DNA of 64,000 nucleotides from Yinghuangia soli. GTDB taxonomy: Bacteria > Actinomycetota > Actinomycetes > Streptomycetales > Streptomycetaceae. Positions within the stretch are counted from its first letter, which is position 1. Every line of letters starts with the position of its first letter. Under the pieces are notes generated by a model. It searched no databases, was not told the DNA's origin, and was given only the letters and a program-made list of their open reading frames with translations. The stretch is from positions 64,366-128,365 of the forward strand of contig NZ_JAKFHA010000013.1 in NCBI RefSeq assembly GCF_021502675.1. The letters run 5' to 3'. A program made the position numbers and the translations under genes. Positions 31,255-64,000 of the stretch are shown here, piece after piece.

Positions 31255-31689
31255 TCAGGGGACGAGCATCACCGGGCACGGCGCTCGGTGCACCACCGCG
31301 TCGCTGACGCTGCCGAGCATCAGGCGCGCCAGGCCCTTGTGGCGGCGCGCGCCGAGCACCAGCAGGTCGGCGCCGTACTCCTTGGCGTGGTCCACGACGG
31401 CGTTGGGCACGTCGGCGCGCAGCGTCTCGCCGGCCCAGCCCTCGACCTCGGCCACCCCGGCCTCGCGCAGCACGGCGACGGCGTCGGTCACGACCTTGGC
31501 GGCCTCGGCGTCCGTCTCTTCCTCGACGATCCCGGCGGCGCCGGTGCCGCCCGCGTCCACGACGTCGACGGTCTGGACGTGCAGGACCCGGACGGCCGCA
31601 CCGAGCGGTCCGGCCAGTCCGGCGGTGCGGGCGAGTACTTCGGCGGTCTCGGGCGTCGCGTCCACCGCGACCAGAATGCGTGCATACAT
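31255..31689 (-). CDS. Universal stress protein (UspA family)
   Basis: A 144-residue Rossmann-like protein. The N-terminal strand ARILVAVDATPE and the C-terminal ATP-binding signature, seen as LGARRHKGLARLMLGSVSDAVV, mark it as an ATP-binding Usp. I chose the ATG at 31689 because a TATATT -10 box (31696-31701) lies six bases upstream, giving a leaderless message; an ATG at 31704 would add five residues but overlaps that box. Such proteins respond to hypoxia and stationary-phase stress. It is divergent from the MaoC gene. Confidence 0.9.
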   Translation of the reverse strand: MYARILVAVDATPETAEVLARTAGLAGPLGAAVRVLHVQTVDVVDAGGTGAAGIVEEETDAEAAKVVTDAVAVLREAGVAEVEGWAGETLRADVPNAVVDHAKEYGADLLVLGARRHKGLARLMLGSVSDAVVHRAPCPVMLVP

Positions 31690-31828
31690 ACTTGCAATAT
31701 ACATCTATTCATCCACGGGCCGTGGCGGCGCGCCGTGCCGCGGAGGGGTGCCTACCTGCTGGTAACCCGGGTCGGGGATGATGTGCCGCAGAACCCCACG
31801 GGGCTCCCCGAGAGAGGACCGCATAACC

Positions 31829-53566: not shown

Positions 53567-55990
53567 TCAGATGGCCTGCTTGCGCTGCAGGTAGGTGAAC
53601 GCCAGCCAGCCCGGCAGGACCGGGAGCCAGAAGGTCAGGAAGCGGAACAGCAGGACGGCCGCGGTGGCGGTGTCGATCGGCAGTTTCGCGGTGGTCGTCA
53701 GGCCCGCGATCAGGGCCGCCTCGATCGCGCCGATGCCGCCGGGGACCGGGGCCGCGGAGCCGATCGCGTTGCCGGCCAGGAACACCACCGCGATCGCGGC
53801 GAAGCTCGCCGAGCCGCCGAAGGCGCGCACGCTGGCGTCCAGGCACAGGATGAACGACACCGTGAGCATGACCGTGCCGCCCAGGCCCGCGGCCAGCTTG
53901 GTGGGCGTCTGGAGGACGTCCAGCAGGCGCGGCACGATGCCGGAGAAGAGCGCGCCGAGGCGCTTGACGATGAAGCGCCGCAGCGGGCCGATGGCCATGA
54001 CCAGCAGGCACACCAGGGCGAGGACGAGCAGGCCCGCGATGACCGCTCCCGAGGGCGCGAACGACGGGGTCTGCTCGGTGCCGGCGATGTAGCCGAAGAA
54101 GATCAGCAGGCCGATGTGGAAGACCAGGCCGCCCAGCTGCGAGACGCCGATACTGGCCGCCGCGAGCGCCGGGGGCACCCCGGACTTCTGCAGGTAGCGG
54201 GCGTTGAGGGCGACACCGCTGACCGCGGCCGGCATGACCAGCTTCACGAAGGATCCGGCCAACTGGACGATGGTCGTCCGCCACACCGAGAGGCGTTCCG
54301 GGACGAACCCGAGCAGCATCAGCGCGGCCGCGACGTAGCTGAGCGAGGAGGCCACGAAGCCGATCGCCGCCCAGCCCCAGTTGGCGCGTTCGAAGATGTC
54401 GCCGAGGTTGGCGTGGGTCAGCTGGGACAGCAGGAAGTACCCGGCGAACGCGGACGCCACGACCGTGACGAGGGTGCGCGGCCGGATGCGCTCCAGGCGG
54501 ATCGGCTCGGCCTCGGCACGCGGCCGGAGCTCCAGGATCTGCTCGCGGATCCGGGACAGCAGGTTGGCGTCCTTGCGCAGCGCGGCGCGCGTCGAGCGGT
54601 TGAGCGCGACCTTCTGCAGCAGCGGCAGGCAGGCCGCGACCGCGTCGGCGCCCAGGCCGCGGGTCGCGGTGCGGACCGCCCGCTCCTCGCCGACCCGCAG
54701 GGCCAGCGCGGTCAGCATCTGCGCGGTGTCGATGCGCAGCGACAGGTCCCCGGACGCGATCTCGCCGGCCCGCAGGTCGGTCAGCCATGGCCGGTTCTCG
54801 TCGTCGACCACGAAGCTGTTGGTGCCGAGCCGGCGGTGGGTGAGCCGGTGCGCCTGCATCAGCGCGATCTGCCGCCAGATCTCGACGAGGAGGGCATCGG
54901 TGAACTCCTCGTCGTCCAGGCTCTCCAGGCTCCGCCCGGGGATGTGCGCATACGCGAGCAGCGCGGCGTCCGAGCCGACCTCGGTGGTGGCGACCAGCCG
55001 CGGGGTGCGGACGCCCGCGTCGGCGGCCGCGTAGGCCATCAGGGACTCCTGCTCCAGCGCCCGGCGCAGCGGCAGGAACGTGCGGCGCGCGGTGGTCACG
55101 CGCAGCCGGACGCGGCGGTAGAAGCGGTAGACCGCGCCCGCGGTCTGCTGGTCGCGGTCCAGCACGGTGACGTCGAGGAGCTGGTCGTCGGTCAGCCGGA
55201 CGGCGTAGCGGCGGGTCTCCTCGGGGCCGTCGTCGGTGCGCACCGCGGAGGCGGCGACCAGGCCGAAGCGGCGCAGTGCGGCGACCACGGCGTCGGCGGG
55301 CGGGCGCCGGTTCGGCACCCCGACCGCGTACATCGTGGCGTACGCCATGGTCCGGCCGAGGAGCACGCTGGTGAGCAGCGCGAGCGGCGTCGTGTAGCCG
55401 CCGACCAGCACCGTGGCGGCGTTGAGGGCGAGCAGCGTCCAGACCAGGGCCTGCCATTTGGGGCGGCGGACCAGGCCGACGGCAGTGATGTAGCCGACGA
55501 TCGGCGCGAGGTAGCCGTGCACCGGGTCGGTGAGGCCGCCGCCGGGCAGCGGCCGGGTGAGCGCCGCCTCCAGGGCGTCCGGAGCGGGCCCGGTGACCCA
55601 CCAGTCCAGGCCGAGCGCGGCGAGGTACGTCAGGGCCGCGGCGATGACGCCGTCGGCGACCCGCAGGCCGTCGCGGCGCAGCAGGCGCTCGACGCCGTAG
55701 GCGACCGGGACGACGAGCACCGCGACCGCGAAGACGCCGCCGGACAGGTTGAGCAGCAGGCGGGGCAGGCTGTTCTGCGCGCCCCGCACGATGTCGGACT
55801 CCAGGCCCGAGGTGGTCTCGCGGGCGATGCTGCCCAGGAAGAACACGACGGCCAGGCAGAGGATGCCGAACACCACGCGCAGCAGGTCGCTGGTGCGGTG
55901 CACGCGCGCCGGCTGCGAGGGCTCGACGACGAGGGCGCGCCCGGTCACGGGGGCACCCGCGTGAGATGTGTCCTCATGGTCTCGAATCAC
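53567..55990 (-). CDS. Lysylphosphatidylglycerol synthase TM region/flippase-like protein with kinase-like domain
   Basis: An 807-residue polytopic membrane protein. Residues about 35-225 contain five to six hydrophobic helices. Residues about 235-480 are a soluble domain resembling an aminoglycoside-phosphotransferase/kinase fold (EQESLMAYAAADAGVRTPRLV, MQAHRLTHRRLGTNSFVVD). The usual catalytic HxDxxxxN reads HRRLGTNS, so the Asp is missing and the domain is probably inactive. Residues about 485-800 form a flippase-like domain (VKLVMPAAVSGVALNARYLQ, GGIGAIEAALIAGL). It probably moves or senses lipids. The start at GTG 55990 has a weak ribosome site. Confidence 0.88.
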   Translation of the reverse strand: MIRDHEDTSHAGAPVTGRALVVEPSQPARVHRTSDLLRVVFGILCLAVVFFLGSIARETTSGLESDIVRGAQNSLPRLLLNLSGGVFAVAVLVVPVAYGVERLLRRDGLRVADGVIAAALTYLAALGLDWWVTGPAPDALEAALTRPLPGGGLTDPVHGYLAPIVGYITAVGLVRRPKWQALVWTLLALNAATVLVGGYTTPLALLTSVLLGRTMAYATMYAVGVPNRRPPADAVVAALRRFGLVAASAVRTDDGPEETRRYAVRLTDDQLLDVTVLDRDQQTAGAVYRFYRRVRLRVTTARRTFLPLRRALEQESLMAYAAADAGVRTPRLVATTEVGSDAALLAYAHIPGRSLESLDDEEFTDALLVEIWRQIALMQAHRLTHRRLGTNSFVVDDENRPWLTDLRAGEIASGDLSLRIDTAQMLTALALRVGEERAVRTATRGLGADAVAACLPLLQKVALNRSTRAALRKDANLLSRIREQILELRPRAEAEPIRLERIRPRTLVTVVASAFAGYFLLSQLTHANLGDIFERANWGWAAIGFVASSLSYVAAALMLLGFVPERLSVWRTTIVQLAGSFVKLVMPAAVSGVALNARYLQKSGVPPALAAASIGVSQLGGLVFHIGLLIFFGYIAGTEQTPSFAPSGAVIAGLLVLALVCLLVMAIGPLRRFIVKRLGALFSGIVPRLLDVLQTPTKLAAGLGGTVMLTVSFILCLDASVRAFGGSASFAAIAVVFLAGNAIGSAAPVPGGIGAIEAALIAGLTTTAKLPIDTATAAVLLFRFLTFWLPVLPGWLAFTYLQRKQAI

Positions 55991-56736: not shown

Positions 56737-59700
56737 ATGACGACCGCGACCTCCGCGTACCGCTTGCGGCGTACCGACGTCAGCCCGCAGGCAGTGCTGA
56801 CGCTGGACGAGCGCCAGCGTGCCGTGGTCGCCCATCCGGGCGGCCCGCTGCTGGTGCTGGCCGGCCCCGGTACGGGAAAGACAACCACTCTTGTGGAGGC
56901 GGTCGCCGACCGGGTCGCCCGGGGGATGCTTCCCGAGGAGATCCTGGTTCTCACGTTCAGCCGCAAGGCGGCCGGGGAGCTGCGCGACCGTATCGCGACC
57001 CGGCTGCGCGGTGGCGCAGGCGCGCAGGACGGTCCCGCGCGAGGGGGTGCGCTGCCGACCGCGACCACGTTCCACTCGTTCTGCTACGCCCTGGTCCGGC
57101 AGCACCAGCCGCCCGAGCTGTTCACGTACCCGCTGCGCCTGCTGTCCGGTCCCGAGCAGGACGTGTTCGTCCGCGAGCTGCTGGCCGGCGAGGCCGAGGA
57201 CGGCACCGTGCGCTGGCCCGACGAGCTGCGTGCCGCCCTGGGCACGCGCGGGTTCGCCGACGAGGTGCGGGCGGTGACCGCGCGCAGCCGCGAGCTGGGC
57301 CTGGACCCGGAGGCGCTGGCCCGGTTCGCCGCCGCGACCGGCCGCCGGGACTGGGCCGCGGCCGCGGAGTTCCTCGGCGAGTACCTGGACGTGCTGGACG
57401 CGCAGGGCGTGGTCGACTACGCCGAGCTGGTGCACCGCGCGGTCATACTCGCCGAGCGCCCCGAGGTGTCCGAGGAACTGCGCCGCCGCTACAAGGTGGT
57501 GTTCGTCGACGAGTACCAGGACACCGACGCGGCCCAGGTGCGGCTGCTGCGTGCGCTTGCCGGGGACGGGCGCGACCTGGTCGCGGTGGGCGACCCGGAC
57601 CAGTCGATCTACGCGTTCCGCGGCGCCGACGTGAACGGCATCCTCGACTTCCGCCACCGGTTCCCGGACCGCACCGGGCAGGCCGCGCCGACCATCGTGC
57701 TGCGCACCTCGCGGCGCGCCGGGGCCGGACTGCTGCGCGCCTCCCGGGAGATCACCAAGCGCATGCCGCTGTCCCGGCTGCCCGCGGCCGACGCCCTTGC
57801 GCACCGCGACCTGACCGCGGACCGGGTGGGGGACGACGACCCGAGCCGCGTGCAGGTCTTCACGTACCCGACGCCGGGCGCCGAGCTGGACAACATCGCC
57901 GACATCCTGCGCCGCGCGCACCTGGAGGACGGCGTGCCGTGGGGCGAGATGGCGGTGCTGGTGCGGTCCGGCGCCCGCTCGATCCCGGCGATCCGGCGCG
58001 CGCTGTCGGTCGCGGGCGTGCCGCTGGAGATCGCCGGCGACGAACTCCCGCTGGCCGCCGAGCAGGCCGTCAACCCGCTGCTGACCGCGCTGCGGGTGGC
58101 CGCGGACCCGGACGCGCTGGACGAGGAGACCGCGCGGCTGCTGCTGCTCTCGCCGATGTGCGGCATGGACTCGGCGGACCTGCGGGTGCTGGGCCGCGCG
58201 CTGCGGGCCGAGGAGCGCGCGGCGGCGGTCGCGGACGCGCAGCTCGCCGAGGCCGACGCAGAGGCCGACGCAGAGGCCGACACGGAGGCAGCGGCCGATG
58301 CGGAGGCCGGCGCCGACGGCGGGCCGCAGGACGGCGAACCCGAGCAGCTGACCATGTTCGGTTTGCCGGCGGCACCGCTCGAAGCCGCGGATGCCGCCGA
58401 AACTGCCGGAGCCCAGGCCGCGGCCCCCGCGGACCCGGGCGCCCCCGCGGAACCTGCCCCGCCCGCCTTCCCCGTCGTCGCCCGCCCCTCCGCCGTTCTC
58501 ATACGCGACGCCCTCGCGCACCCCGAGCAGCTCGTCGCGGTCGACGCGCAGATCGCCGCGGGTGCGTACCGGCTCGGGATCCTGCTCGCCAAAGCCCGCG
58601 CGATCCTGGACGCGGGCGGCACCACCGAGGCCGCACTGTGGGAGCTGTGGCACGGGACCCCCTGGCCGGCCCGCCTGGAGCGCGCGGTGCTGCGCGGCGG
58701 CCCGTCCGGCCGCAACGCGGACCGCGATCTGGACGCGGTGGTCGCGCTGTTCGAGGTCGCCGCCCGGGCCGAGGAGCGGGCCGGGCACCGCGGTGCGCTG
58801 AACTTCCTGGAGGAGTTGACCGCGCAGCAGATCCCCGGCGACCGGCTGGACGACAAAGCGGTGCGCGGCGAGTCCGTGCGGCTGCTGACCGCGCACCGCT
58901 CCAAGGGCCTGCAGTGGCGGCTCGTGGTGGTGGCCGGGGTGCAGGAGGGCCTGTGGCCGGACCTGCGGCGCCGCGGCTCGCTCCTGGAAGCGGACCGCAT
59001 CGGCGCCGACGGCCTGGCCGAACCGCTCTCGCCCGGTGCGCTGCTGGCCGAGGAGCGCCGGCTGTTCTACGTCGCGGCCACCCGCGCCCGCGAGCGGCTC
59101 GTGGTGACCGCGGTGAAGTCCGCGTACGAGGACGGCGACCAGCCCTCGCGGTTCCTCGCCGAACTGGGCGACGAGAAGACCGGGGTGGAGCGGGCCGATG
59201 TGACCTCGCGGCCGCGGCGCCCGCTGTCGACGTCGGCGCTGGTCGCCGAGCTGCGGTCGGCGGCGGTCGACCCGAAGGCGCCGCGCAGTGTGCAGCTGGC
59301 CGCCGCGCGGCGGCTCGCGAAGCTGGCCGCGCTGCGCGACGAGGACGGCTACCCGATGGTCCCCGCGGCGCATCCCGAGCGCTGGTGGGGGCTGGTGGAG
59401 CCGACCGACCCGGGCATCCCGGTACGCGATCCGCGGGCGCCGGTCCGGCTGTCCGGCAGCGCGGTGGAGAAGGTCGACACCTGCTCGCTGAGCTGGTTCC
59501 TGGGCCGCGAAGTGCGGGCCGAATCGGCGCGCAGCGCAGCGCTGGGATTCGGCAATGTCGTGCACGCGCTGGCCGACGAGGTGGGCACGGGCGCGACTGC
59601 GGCCGAACTCCCGGTGCTGATGGACCGGTTGGACCGGGTATGGGATGCGCTGGCGTTCGATGCGCCATGGCAGTCCGAGCAGCAGAAGGAAGAGGCCCGG

Positions 59701-60267
59701 GGGGCGTTGGAGCGGTTCCTGGCCTGGCATACCCACGAGCGGCACCGCGTGGTGGCCGCGACCGAGCACGAGTTCGAGGTGAGCCTGACCGCGGGCGAGC
59801 ACGACATCGTGATCCGCGGGTCGATGGACCGGGTCGAGCGCGGCGCCGACGGCCTGGCGTACGTCGTCGACTTCAAGACCGGCAAGCACAAGCCGACCGC
59901 GAAGGAGGTCGACCGGCATCCGCAGCTGGCGGTCTATCAGGCGGCGGTGTCGGGCGGCGCGTTGGACGAGGTCGAGGCGTTCGGCGGGGCCCGCCCGCCG
60001 GTCGGCGGTGCGGAGCTGGTGCAGCTGCGGCACCGGGCGGCGGCGAAGGACGCCGGACCGGACGCCGAGCGGCTGCCCGCGGTGCAGGAGCAGGGCCCGC
60101 CGGTGCCGGACGAGGACGGCGGTACGTGGGTGTCCGCGCTGCTGGCCGACGTGGCGGGCCGGATCCTGGGCGAGCGCTTCCGGCCGAAGGGCGGTTCGCA
60201 CTGCGACCGTTGCGAGTTCCGGCGCTGCTGCAGCGCGCGCAGCGAAGGCCGCACCGTCGTCGAGTGA
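56737..60267 (+). CDS. UvrD-type DNA helicase fused to RecB-like nuclease (AdnA/AdnB type)
   Basis: An 1176-residue SF1 helicase-nuclease of double-strand-break resection. Helicase motifs seen are Walker A GPGTGKTT (43-50), VFVDEYQDTD, VGDPDQSIYAFRGAD, LTAHRSKGLQWRLVVVAG and YVAATRARERL. The C-terminal nuclease has VVDFKTGKHKPT near residue 1044 and four late cysteines (CDRCEFRRCC, about 1155-1165) that, with a Cys near 915 (TCSLSWF), look like an iron-sulfur cluster of the RecB/AddB kind. Residues about 500-585 are an acidic Ala/Glu/Asp insertion. In mycobacteria two such subunits are adjacent; here no second one follows in the window. Confidence 0.9.
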   Translation: MTTATSAYRLRRTDVSPQAVLTLDERQRAVVAHPGGPLLVLAGPGTGKTTTLVEAVADRVARGMLPEEILVLTFSRKAAGELRDRIATRLRGGAGAQDGPARGGALPTATTFHSFCYALVRQHQPPELFTYPLRLLSGPEQDVFVRELLAGEAEDGTVRWPDELRAALGTRGFADEVRAVTARSRELGLDPEALARFAAATGRRDWAAAAEFLGEYLDVLDAQGVVDYAELVHRAVILAERPEVSEELRRRYKVVFVDEYQDTDAAQVRLLRALAGDGRDLVAVGDPDQSIYAFRGADVNGILDFRHRFPDRTGQAAPTIVLRTSRRAGAGLLRASREITKRMPLSRLPAADALAHRDLTADRVGDDDPSRVQVFTYPTPGAELDNIADILRRAHLEDGVPWGEMAVLVRSGARSIPAIRRALSVAGVPLEIAGDELPLAAEQAVNPLLTALRVAADPDALDEETARLLLLSPMCGMDSADLRVLGRALRAEERAAAVADAQLAEADAEADAEADTEAAADAEAGADGGPQDGEPEQLTMFGLPAAPLEAADAAETAGAQAAAPADPGAPAEPAPPAFPVVARPSAVLIRDALAHPEQLVAVDAQIAAGAYRLGILLAKARAILDAGGTTEAALWELWHGTPWPARLERAVLRGGPSGRNADRDLDAVVALFEVAARAEERAGHRGALNFLEELTAQQIPGDRLDDKAVRGESVRLLTAHRSKGLQWRLVVVAGVQEGLWPDLRRRGSLLEADRIGADGLAEPLSPGALLAEERRLFYVAATRARERLVVTAVKSAYEDGDQPSRFLAELGDEKTGVERADVTSRPRRPLSTSALVAELRSAAVDPKAPRSVQLAAARRLAKLAALRDEDGYPMVPAAHPERWWGLVEPTDPGIPVRDPRAPVRLSGSAVEKVDTCSLSWFLGREVRAESARSAALGFGNVVHALADEVGTGATAAELPVLMDRLDRVWDALAFDAPWQSEQQKEEARGALERFLAWHTHERHRVVAATEHEFEVSLTAGEHDIVIRGSMDRVERGADGLAYVVDFKTGKHKPTAKEVDRHPQLAVYQAAVSGGALDEVEAFGGARPPVGGAELVQLRHRAAAKDAGPDAERLPAVQEQGPPVPDEDGGTWVSALLADVAGRILGERFRPKGGSHCDRCEFRRCCSARSEGRTVVE

Positions 60268-60330
60268 CCGCGCCGCGCCGCGCCGAGGACGCCGGACGGG
60301 GGCGGTTCGGCGGGACGAATCGGGGCATCG

Positions 60331-60337
60331 CCATACT
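60331..60337 (+). promoter_or_regulatory. CCATACT promoter element, lipoprotein array
   Basis: CCATACT here recurs before the next two lipoprotein genes (61188-61194 and 62103-62109), and as GGATACT (63661-63667) before the fourth. At the second and third genes the sequence just downstream is also shared (GCGCGCAC). At 61188 a TTGACG lies about 16 bp upstream of the CATACT, the expected -35 spacing. Distances to the starts vary between about 42 and 80 bp. Confidence 0.5.
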
Positions 60338-60379
60338 GGCGATCAAGACCGGCCGCCCCCGGAACCGATGGAGCTTCTC

Positions 60380-61123
60380 GTGCACGTGCGCCGTATTGCC
60401 CTCTCCGTGTCCGCCGCGTTCCTCGCGGTCGCCGCTCTCGGCGCCTGCAGCGACGACAAGGGCGAGGACAAGACCGACAACACGAAGACCGACGCGAAGA
60501 CGCTGGCCGACCAGTCCATCGCCGAGATGGACAAGCTCGAATTCGTGCAGGCGGACGGCACCGGCACCGCGGACGACGGGAAGCCGGCGTCGGCGTCCAT
60601 GTGCGCGGTGATGAAGACCAAGGCGGTGTCCGGCTCGGTCACCATCGACGGGCACAAGCTCGACGTCATCGCCATCGACGGCGCGCAGTACATGCGCGGA
60701 GCCGGCGAGGCGTGGGCCTACCTGCTCGGCAAGCCGGACGATGCGCGCATCGTCGCGGCGGCGGGCAAGGTCGCCGGCGACAAGTACATCAAGTCCCCGG
60801 CGGAGGACAAGGACGACCAGATCGTCGACTTCTTCGACGGCAAGACCGACACGGTCACCAAGGGCGAAGTCACCGACTTCAAGGGCCAGAAGGTCGTGCC
60901 GCTGTCGCAGACCGGCACGGACGGCGAGAAGAAGACGTACTACGTCGCGGCCGAGGGCAAGCCGCTGATCGTCGGCAAGAAGGAAGAGGCGGCCGAGGGG
61001 CCGGAGCGCCAGGAGACGGTCTTCACGAAGGCCGGTTCGTGCGTGGTCAAGGCGCCCGGAACCGACCAGGTCATCGACGCGGACACGTTCGACACCGAGC
61101 TCAAGGCCGAGCTCACGAGCTGA
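60380..61123 (+). CDS. LppX-like lipoprotein 1
   Basis: A 247-residue predicted lipoprotein. The GTG at 60380 is chosen because GGAG lies six bases upstream, as in the three paralogues downstream. The signal peptide (VRRIALSVSAAFLAVAA) ends in lipobox LGAC. The mature part is acidic and Lys-rich with LADQSIAEMDK, YVAAEGKPLIVG and a conserved Cys pair (SMCAV and GSCVVKAP) likely to form a disulfide. Layout and strand pattern resemble LppX/LprG lipid-binding lipoproteins. First of a tandem array beginning about 110 bp after the helicase-nuclease. Ligand unknown. Confidence 0.82.
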   Translation: MHVRRIALSVSAAFLAVAALGACSDDKGEDKTDNTKTDAKTLADQSIAEMDKLEFVQADGTGTADDGKPASASMCAVMKTKAVSGSVTIDGHKLDVIAIDGAQYMRGAGEAWAYLLGKPDDARIVAAAGKVAGDKYIKSPAEDKDDQIVDFFDGKTDTVTKGEVTDFKGQKVVPLSQTGTDGEKKTYYVAAEGKPLIVGKKEEAAEGPERQETVFTKAGSCVVKAPGTDQVIDADTFDTELKAELTS

Positions 61124-61252
61124 CGCCTGCCCGCCGGCCGATGAACGCAAGTACCGTTGATCATTTTTGACGGTGATTTGACCGCTGCCATACTGGCGCG
61201 CACTTGCGATCTTGTGCCGGGGGAGAGCCCGGTGCCGACACCCGGAGTTTTT

Positions 61253-61981
61253 GTGCGCGTTCGCCGTCTTGCCACTGCCGCCTTTGCCGCCGTCTTCGCC
61301 GTCGCCGGCGTCGCCGCCTGCTCCGAGGACGAAGGGGCCGACAACACCAAGACCGAGGCGAAGGCGCTGGCCGACCAGGCGGTCGCCGCGATGAAGAAGG
61401 TCCAGTACATCAAGGGTGAGGCCAAGGGGAAGGACGAGGAGGGCAAGGACGTCGCGCTGTCCATGTGCGCCGACATGACCGGCAAGACCTTCTCGGCCAA
61501 GGGCACCATGGCCGGCCACGCCGTCGAGATGATCGAGATCGGCGACGACAAGTACATGAAGGGCGACGGCAAGTTCTGGGCATCGGTGACCGGCGGCGGC
61601 GAGGACCCGGAGGCCGCGGCCACGTTCGACAAGGTGCTGGGCGGCAAGTACGTCCTGACCAAGGCCGACCCGGGCGACGAGGACGGCGTCACCTTCTTCG
61701 AGGGCGGCACCGACGGCGTCACCAAGGGCGAGGTCACCACTTTCCAGGGCAAGAAGGCCGTCCCGCTCGTCAAGACCAAGAGCGGCGACAAGACGACGTA
61801 CTACGTCGCGGCCAAGGGCGACCCGGTCGTGCTCGGCCAGCTGGAGGAGAACAAGGACGGCTCGCGCAACGAGGTCACGTACAGCAAGAGCTCCAAGTGC
61901 GAGGCCCAGGCGCCTGCCAAGGACCAGGTCATGACCGACGACGACGTCGAGGCCGCGCTCGAGGCGGAGAAGGCCGCCTGA
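61253..61981 (+). CDS. LppX-like lipoprotein 2
   Basis: A 242-residue paralogue of lipoprotein 1. The GTG follows GGAGTTTTT. The signal peptide ends in lipobox VAAC. The mature chain has LADQAVAAMKKVQYIKGEA, SMCADMTGK, VTKGEVTTFQGKKAVPL and YYVAAKGDPVVLG, and ends SKCEAQAP...AALEAEKAA, preserving the Cys pair. Upstream are its own CCATACT element (61188-61194) and a GGGGGAGAGCCC stretch. The separate promoter suggests independent or staged expression rather than one operon. Confidence 0.82.
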   Translation: MRVRRLATAAFAAVFAVAGVAACSEDEGADNTKTEAKALADQAVAAMKKVQYIKGEAKGKDEEGKDVALSMCADMTGKTFSAKGTMAGHAVEMIEIGDDKYMKGDGKFWASVTGGGEDPEAAATFDKVLGGKYVLTKADPGDEDGVTFFEGGTDGVTKGEVTTFQGKKAVPLVKTKSGDKTTYYVAAKGDPVVLGQLEENKDGSRNEVTYSKSSKCEAQAPAKDQVMTDDDVEAALEAEKAA

Positions 61982-62045
61982 CCGAGGTCGGCGGCCGGTC
62001 GGGTCGCGGGTAGTCGCAAGTAGTAGCAATTAGCAGGGAAGCAAG

Positions 62046-62073
62046 CAATATCCGGGAAGCGCGCCGGATATTG
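62046..62073 (+). terminator. 10-bp inverted repeat between lipoproteins 2 and 3
   Basis: CAATATCCGG (62046-62055) pairs perfectly with CCGGATATTG (62064-62073) around GAAGCGCG, in an AT-rich patch 65 bp after the lipoprotein 2 stop. It may terminate that gene, or be an operator for lipoprotein 3, whose CCATACT element lies 30 bp downstream. Confidence 0.5.
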
Positions 62074-62165
62074 ACCGGATCTTTCCGTGTCATTGGCTGC
62101 TGCCATACTTGCGCGCACGTTCGACCTGAGCCCGGTTGCCGGGTGCCGACCCACGGAGACCTCCT

Positions 62166-63530
62166 GTGCGTGTGCGTCCCTTTGCCATAGCCGCGTCCGC
62201 GACGGCCCTTGTGGTCGCCGGCCTTGCCGGGTGTTCCGAGGGCAAGGTGGCCGACAACACCAAGCTCGACGCCAAGGTGCTCGCCGACAAGGCCGTCGCC
62301 GAGATGAACAAGATGCGGTACGTCGACGCGGCGGCGAAGGGCAAGACCGCCGAAGGCGTGGAGACGACGAGCGCTCTGTGTGCGGACCTGTCGGCCAAGT
62401 CGCTCGCGGGCAAGGGAACGTTCGCCGGGGAAGCCGTCGAGATGGTCCAGGTCGACGACCGGACCTACTCGAAGGGCAACGGCAAGATGTGGGCCGCCGC
62501 GGCCGGCTCCGCCGACGACGTGGCCGCGACCGCGGCGTTCGAGAAGGCCCTCGCCGGCAAGTTCGTCCAGGGCAAGGCGGATCCCGACGCCATGGTCGAG
62601 TTCTTCTACGGCGACACCAACGGTGTCACCAAGGGCGACGTCATGACGTTCGCGGGACAGCAGGCAGTGCCCCTCACCAAGACCAGCAGCAGCGGCGGCA
62701 AGACGACGTACTACATCGCCGCCAAGGGCGCGCCGGTCATCCTCGGCGACGTCGAGGACGACAAGGACGGCGCGCGCGACGAGACCACGTACACCAAGGC
62801 CGCCGCCAAGTGCGAGGTGAAGGAGCCGGCCAAGGACCAGGTCATCCCCGAGGACGAGGTCGAGGCGGCGCTCGAGGCCGTGGCCGACAACACGCTGGCC
62901 GACCCCAAGGACCTGGCCGACCGGTCGCGTGAGCACGCCCTCAAGCAGAAGTCCGTGGCGCTTTCCGGCACGGGCACGGACGAGGACGGCACCTTCACCA
63001 TGGAGGGCTGCATCTCGTACAAGGCGGACGGCACGATCACCGGCCTCAAGGCCAGCATGGCGGACACTAAGGGCCGCAAGATGGAGATGATCGAGGTCGA
63101 CGGCAAGTCGTACATGAAGATCCCGACCTCGGCCTTCATCGACGCCATGGGCTCCGCTGCCACCCCCAAGGCCAAGGAGGTGGTCGAGAAGGCGCTCGGC
63201 GACAAGCACCTCGTGGCCGATGCCGAGGACGGCGAGGAGTTCGACAAGGCCGTCGGCAAGGTCACCAAGGGCACGGCCACCACGTACCAGGGCAAGCCGG
63301 CCGTCGAGTTGGTCTTCAAGGCTACGGATGGCCTGCAGCACCTCCGCTATGTGGCCGCGGAAGGAGCGCCGGTCATCCTCGGGGATATCGAGGACCCGGA
63401 CGGCAAGGAGCGCGTGGAGTCGGTCTACAAGGCCTTCGGCGGCGGCTGCGACGTGGTCGCGCCTCCGGCGGCTCAGGTCATCGAGGAGTCGCAGATCGAG
63501 AAGGCCTTGGAGGACGCCGCCCGCGGTTGA
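62166..63530 (+). CDS. Two-domain LppX-like lipoprotein 3
   Basis: A 454-residue lipoprotein with two copies of the same domain. GTG after GGAGACCTCCT; signal peptide with lipobox LAGC. Domain 1 (about 35-235) has LADKAVAEMNKM, the Cys pair (ALCADL, AKCEVKEP) and VTKGDVMTFAGQ. Domain 2 (about 245-450) lacks a signal peptide and lipobox but repeats the pattern: LADRSREHALKQKSV, EGCISYKADG, VTKGTATTYQGKPAVEL, GGGCDVVAP. The junction EAVADNTLADPKDLAD suggests fusion of two neighbouring paralogues with loss of the second export signal. Confidence 0.85.
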   Translation: MRVRPFAIAASATALVVAGLAGCSEGKVADNTKLDAKVLADKAVAEMNKMRYVDAAAKGKTAEGVETTSALCADLSAKSLAGKGTFAGEAVEMVQVDDRTYSKGNGKMWAAAAGSADDVAATAAFEKALAGKFVQGKADPDAMVEFFYGDTNGVTKGDVMTFAGQQAVPLTKTSSSGGKTTYYIAAKGAPVILGDVEDDKDGARDETTYTKAAAKCEVKEPAKDQVIPEDEVEAALEAVADNTLADPKDLADRSREHALKQKSVALSGTGTDEDGTFTMEGCISYKADGTITGLKASMADTKGRKMEMIEVDGKSYMKIPTSAFIDAMGSAATPKAKEVVEKALGDKHLVADAEDGEEFDKAVGKVTKGTATTYQGKPAVELVFKATDGLQHLRYVAAEGAPVILGDIEDPDGKERVESVYKAFGGGCDVVAPPAAQVIEESQIEKALEDAARG

Positions 63531-63745
63531 GCCGAGATACACCGGGCGGCAGGGTGACCGCGCTTCTGAGCCGCCCACGGGCCGGTCCTACCGATCCCCG
63601 GGCCGGAGGCCGGCGGCAGTCCACCATCGGTGACTGTCCGTCAGATGCTTGACAGAGTCGGGATACTGGGCGCGCGATGCTCCCACGGCGCCCCGCCATC
63701 GCACGGTCCGCGGTGGCGGGGCGCCGTCCGTCCCGAGGAGTACCT

Positions 63746-64000
63746 GTGCGTCCGACCCGCCCTGTTCCGACCGCGCTGGCCGCCGGTGCCGCCCTGGTGT
63801 TCGCGTTCGCGAGCCTGACCGCCTGCTCCGGCGGCGCGGCCGAGAACCCCGAGGCGGTGTCCCGGACCGGTCCGGGCGCCCCCGGCGGTACGGCTCCCGC
63901 GCCCGGCTCCATCATCGACGGCACGAAGGGCGCGGTCCCCGACACGCGTCCGCCCGGCGCCCTCAGCGGCCGCGAACTTGCGGACCGCGCGGTGCAGTTG
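63746..64000 (+). CDS. Lipoprotein 4, partial at window edge
   Basis: The first 85 codons of a further lipoprotein, running off the window. The GTG at 63746 follows GAGGAG, and the signal peptide (ALAAGAALVFAFASLTAC) ends in lipobox LTAC at Cys27. The visible mature part is a Gly/Pro/Ala linker followed by GRELADRAVQL, the same ELADRAV-like start of domain as in lipoproteins 1-3 (LADQ/LADK), so it is probably a fourth member with a longer linker. Upstream is a GGATACT promoter element at 63661-63667. Confidence 0.7.
   Translation, partial: MRPTRPVPTALAAGAALVFAFASLTACSGGAAENPEAVSRTGPGAPGGTAPAPGSIIDGTKGAVPDTRPPGALSGRELADRAVQL

Follow-up and report, generated by a model that had tools for sequence, protein, structure and literature searches.

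What do the four consecutive lipoprotein genes between adnB and adnA of a Yinghuangia genome encode, and how did they come to stand in a row at this place? The window, that is, the whole stretch of 64,000 nt that was analysed, comprises positions 64366-128365 of a contig in the 9.7 Mb genome of this member of the Streptomycetaceae. The original prediction had described at least four tandem LppX-like lipoproteins, each with a promoter of its own, had suggested diversification for different ligands or growth stages, and had known of no comparable system described before. The reading that we regard as moderately probable is a tandem expansion, specific to this lineage, of a SCO4651-type, LolA-fold, probably lipid-binding lipoprotein at an inherited site between adnB and adnA.

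Four lipoprotein genes with five homologous domains

The array is complete, because an adnB-type gene bounds it on the left and an adnA-type gene on the right (Table 1). The two names were given from domain content and gene order, and the genes are presumably the counterparts of the mycobacterial pair. Gene 4 ends 555 nt beyond the window and is directly followed by the adnA helicase gene, so that the number of lipoprotein genes is exactly four. All four reading frames are intact, with GC3 values of 0.93-0.96. The NG86 dN/dS ratios were uninformative, as synonymous distances near 0.35 look saturated because GC3 is near 0.95.

The features that had been attributed to these genes were recovered in the open frames. 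GTG starts behind GGAG, a lipobox and the LAD(Q/K/R) helix are common to all four. The lipoboxes of genes 1-4, read by eye as LGAC, VAAC, LAGC and LTAC, each follow a hydrophobic segment, and the helix motif reads LADQ, LADQ, LADK and LADR, respectively, with LADR repeated in the second domain of gene 3. The predicted Cys pair is present in each domain of genes 1-3; among the aligned relatives, it occurs only in Yinghuangia and a sister genus. Gene 4 is the most distant copy, and its sole Cys is that of the lipobox. Gene 3 is indeed a fusion of two domains, and the second of these, 3b, lacks the signal peptide as well as the lipobox.

Tandem duplication was likewise borne out by five homologous domains in a row. 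Identity to gene 2 is 32-56% in the other domains, and pairwise searches with gene 2 alone as query found them with E-values of 6e-4 to 3e-75, far beyond chance. A profile that was built including these sequences gave E-values of 1e-65 to 1e-96 for all five domains.

Table 1. Coordinates of the genes, domains and putative promoter elements (window positions)
Feature	Position	Strand	Remarks
adnB-type UvrD helicase / PD-(D/E)XK nuclease gene, left flank	56737..60267	+	Pfam UvrD-helicase 4e-62, PDDEXK_1 1e-37
CCATACT, -10-like element of gene 1	60331..60337	+	conserved in Yinghuangia and sister genus
Gene 1, lipoprotein, one domain of predicted LolA fold	60380..61123	+	GTG start, GGAG at 60370; Cys 75/221
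TTGACG-16-CATACT, putative promoter of gene 2, TG before the -10	61167..61194	+	1 in region vs 0.1 expected
Gene 2, lipoprotein, one domain of predicted LolA fold, modelled	61253..61981	+	GGAG at 61244; Cys 72/216
CCATACT, -10-like element of gene 3	62103..62109	+	motif scan
Gene 3, whole, two-domain fusion	62166-63530	+	GGAG at 62155
Gene 3, domain 3a, signal peptide and lipobox LAGC	62166..62876	+	Cys 72/216; tree sister of gene 2, support 100
Gene 3, domain 3b, without signal peptide or lipobox	62877..63530	+	Cys pair kept (45/191); in tree with second domain of Y. seranimata fusion, support 95
Block of 50 nt before gene 4, GATACT at 63662-63667	63629..63678	+	49/50 identical in Y. seranimata
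Gene 4, lipoprotein without Cys pair	63746..64000, on to window-equivalent 64555 (L007:4112-4921)	+	GGAG at 63737; Y. seranimata orthologue 66% identical

Family membership and predicted fold

Comparison of the single window proteins with Pfam, NCBIfam and PDB sequences yielded no significant family. The Pfam family LppX_LprAFG (PF07161) gave no match for genes 2, 3 and 4 at E-values up to 10 and none for gene 1 at E-values up to 1, and no place in the whole genome scored above the Pfam cut-off. The NCBIfam family NF053532 (SCO4651 family lipoprotein) matched 15 of 15 wider homologues (best E-value 1.9e-13) and 7 of the 13 members of a Yinghuangia-centred set; the scores of gene 1 (16.4 bits), gene 4 (16.9 bits) and gene 2 (11.1 bits) lie below its curated cut-off of 65 bits. 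Judged by their sequences, the array genes are divergent members of the SCO4651 family of Streptomycetaceae lipoproteins. A phage origin was rejected, because no relative was found among the viral contigs and no viral structure match fell below E=0.001.

The AlphaFold2 model of gene 2, based on an alignment of seven sequences from the window and Y. seranimata, has a pLDDT of 83.9 and a pTM of 0.79, with the order helix, strands, helices, strands. Foldseek comparison of this model with the PDB found LprG (1.5e-6) and also LolA, LppX, LprF, RseB/MucB and EPDR1. These fold matches had E-values of 1e-6 to 1e-4 and TM-scores of roughly 0.3 to 0.7, and the TM-scores to LprG/LppX were moderate (0.47-0.60). 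The top E-value (4.0e-7) belonged to a PNGase entry, but the TM-scores were lower. At the profile level, LprG was the sole PDB chain under E=1 for the 13-sequence family profile (E 0.22), and the wider profile gave five weak matches, LppX, LprF, LpqN and LprG among them. None of the profile matches is significant alone, yet they agree with a LolA-type fold. For the gene 3 fusion, which has few related sequences, the AlphaFold model reached a pLDDT of 44.

Two hallmarks of LppX_LprAFG are therefore found in the array, a lipoprotein signal peptide in the genes (lipoboxes by eye) and a LolA-like half-barrel in the gene 2 model, which shows the LolA/LprG/LppX fold. The designation LppX-like is apt for the fold, but not for the family, because the Pfam cut-off of LppX_LprAFG was not reached.

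The presence of RseB and MucB among the fold matches raises the main rival to lipid binding, namely that the array proteins are envelope-stress sensors or regulators in which the LolA fold recognises a signal or partner protein instead of carrying lipid. The second domain of RseB/MucB is absent from the array proteins, however, and the genes next to the array include neither an anti-sigma factor nor a sensor kinase. A sensor would fit the listing of S. coelicolor SCO4651 among the targets of sigma-E, a sigma factor for envelope stress (PMC6767563), but this link concerns one distant family member. We regard a role in stress sensing as unlikely.

Putative promoter elements, inherited site and history of the copies

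On both strands of the 64 kb taken together, there are three copies of the motif CCATACT, each 48-64 nt before one of genes 1, 2 and 3, and GATACTGG lies 84 nt before gene 4. In Yinghuangia and the sister genus, 11 of 13 genes have an ATACT element 43-91 nt upstream of the start, versus 0.017 expected per region. As ATACT was kept while the flanks diverged, a functional -10-like element is well supported; the sequences upstream of genes 2 and 3 are copies of one another and thus not independent evidence. A recognisable -35 is present only at gene 2. A SATACTKG scan of the window returned the gene 4 copy and two other places, which lie outside the array on the + strand (31687-31694 and 54149-54156). 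The block before gene 4, which is far better conserved in Y. seranimata (49/50) than the gene 4 protein (66% identity), also contains an inverted-repeat-like CTGTC...GACAG, perhaps an operator. A consensus search of the window for a DNA-damage promoter of the PafBC/RecA-NDp type found no such site.

In Y. seranimata, a gap of 20 nt separates the fusion gene from the gene before it, and the fusion gene lacks an ATACT element, so that it is probably read from the preceding promoter. Between the array genes, no terminator-like sites were seen on the + strand, and read-through is therefore possible. Separate promoters for the array genes are plausible from the upstream sequences. The claim of one promoter per gene held insofar as a -10-like element lies before each of the four genes and is kept across species, but it does not extend to the fusion gene of Y. 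seranimata.

The position of the array was compared across 81 Streptomycetaceae genomes from 17 genera, with family members defined by E<=1e-6 and copy counts that are lower bounds, as up to 33 candidates per genome were scored. At least one family member was found in 56 of the 81 genomes. In 29 genomes, representing 9 of the 17 genera, a family lipoprotein is encoded directly before adnA, usually as one copy. This position cannot be chance, given about two family members per genome. Nearly all junction lipoproteins (28/29) share the orientation of adnA, with no more than about 480 nt between adnA and the end of the lipoprotein gene nearest to it; in L149 (genus g15), the family member adjoins adnA on the opposite strand. 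Where the lipoprotein is missing, the gap between adnB and adnA is mostly shorter than 180 nt, and in the other family of the order the two genes abut or overlap. Gaps of about 640 nt with no evident reading frame were observed in L084 and L093 (genera g5 and g16) and may be what is left of a lost lipoprotein gene.

The copy number at the junction is one in the sister genus, two in the Yinghuangia genome G002, three genes with a fusion in Y. seranimata, and four with a fusion here. Runs of at least three genes and two-domain fusions were found only in the latter two of the 81 genomes, and three genomes from other genera have pairs before adnA. The earlier statement that no such system had been described is thus only partly true: the family is catalogued (NF053532) and pairs exist in other genera, but the four-gene array and the fusion were found only in Yinghuangia. 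In many genera (L146, L150, L155, L156, L133), a second, separate clade of the family is located 30-46 kb upstream of adnA, and its Yinghuangia orthologues are located elsewhere (L118, L121, L125). That locus also carries tandem pairs (L133, L125), and because these are common to another genus and Yinghuangia, tandem duplication in this lipoprotein family appears to be old and recurrent.

In a tree of 59 domains (IQ-TREE, LG+G4), in which support is modest at several nodes, 3b and gene 4 pair with their Y. seranimata counterparts (support 100 for gene 4), 3a pairs with the neighbouring gene 2, and gene 1 groups with a gene of G002 (96). Read most simply, these groupings would place the origin of the fusion and of gene 4 before the split of the two Yinghuangia species, and 3a and gene 2 would have been copied or converted later within the Yinghuangia lineage studied here.

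Alternatively, the array might reflect changes in copy number that are mostly neutral, at a spot that tolerates them, with equivalent copies whose dosage is of little import. The range from one to four genes among close relatives would be in line with this, as would the close likeness of neighbours in the same genome (3a with gene 2), which is what recent copying or gene conversion would leave. However, every frame is intact, 3b appears to have been retained since before the species split, and gene 4 keeps 66% identity to its orthologue as well as 49 of 50 identical nucleotides in the block upstream. Neutral change is in our view quite improbable. A functional tie of the lipoproteins to the AdnAB helicase-nuclease, for example by shared transcription of adnA, could draw on their orientation and closeness to adnA, but it is hardly credible, because most genomes without the lipoprotein still have adnB beside adnA, it is not evident how a lipoprotein outside the cytoplasm would reach a DNA enzyme inside it, and inherited position accounts for the pattern.

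Proposed explanation and comparison with known systems

The expansion of a probably lipid-binding lipoprotein at an inherited site is therefore the reading that we prefer. The copies would have arisen by tandem duplication, probably through unequal crossing-over. Gene 3 would have formed from two copies by loss of the intervening stop codon and signal sequence, resulting in two domains on one anchor. We infer that the products leave the cytoplasm, receive their lipid on the lipobox Cys and stay anchored at the outer face of the cell membrane. There, in the cell wall space, the LolA/LprG-type half-barrel would most likely bind a hydrophobic molecule such as a lipid; lipid binding is suggested by the fold of the gene 2 model. 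LprG is reported to be involved in triacylglyceride transport together with Rv1410 (PMC4709180, PMC10576003). By analogy with LprG, a hydrophobic ligand is likely for the array proteins, although the host lacks a mycomembrane and no transporter gene adjoins the array. It is very unlikely, but conceivable, that the fusion serves as a tethered relay, in which two LolA-type domains shuttle hydrophobic ligand molecules between membrane and single-domain neighbours. If so, the array would be a small lipid-handling module in a bacterium without an outer membrane.

Taken together, the array is a real but fairly ordinary expansion of a catalogued lipoprotein family and not a new system, and the fusion is unusual. 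LolA-fold lipoproteins are understood where an outer membrane or a mycomembrane exists, and streptomycetes, which carry many relatives of them, have neither. Since gene number at this single conserved site runs naturally from one through two and three to four, and a fusion of known relative age is included, dosage, ligand and the effect on the neighbouring adnA become testable.

LolA/LolB and RseB/MucB share the overall fold of the gene 2 model, but LolA is soluble and serves outer-membrane lipoproteins, and RseB and MucB bear a second domain of a different fold. The mycobacterial proteins LppX, LprG, LprA and LprF (PF07161) resemble the array proteins in the LolA-like fold and the single lipid anchor. 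They differ in that their Pfam model misses the array and that the array has no adjacent transporter such as Rv1410. In addition, the Yinghuangia host has, to our knowledge, like other streptomycetes no mycomembrane, the layer that LprG and LppX serve. The SCO4651 family (NF053532) has the lipobox and, by sequence, the same domain, but the Yinghuangia genes score far under its 65-bit cut-off and form a tandem array with a two-domain fusion. The junction lipoproteins of other Streptomycetaceae come as one copy (two in three genomes) and without a fusion, but they belong to the same family and occupy the same place before adnA.
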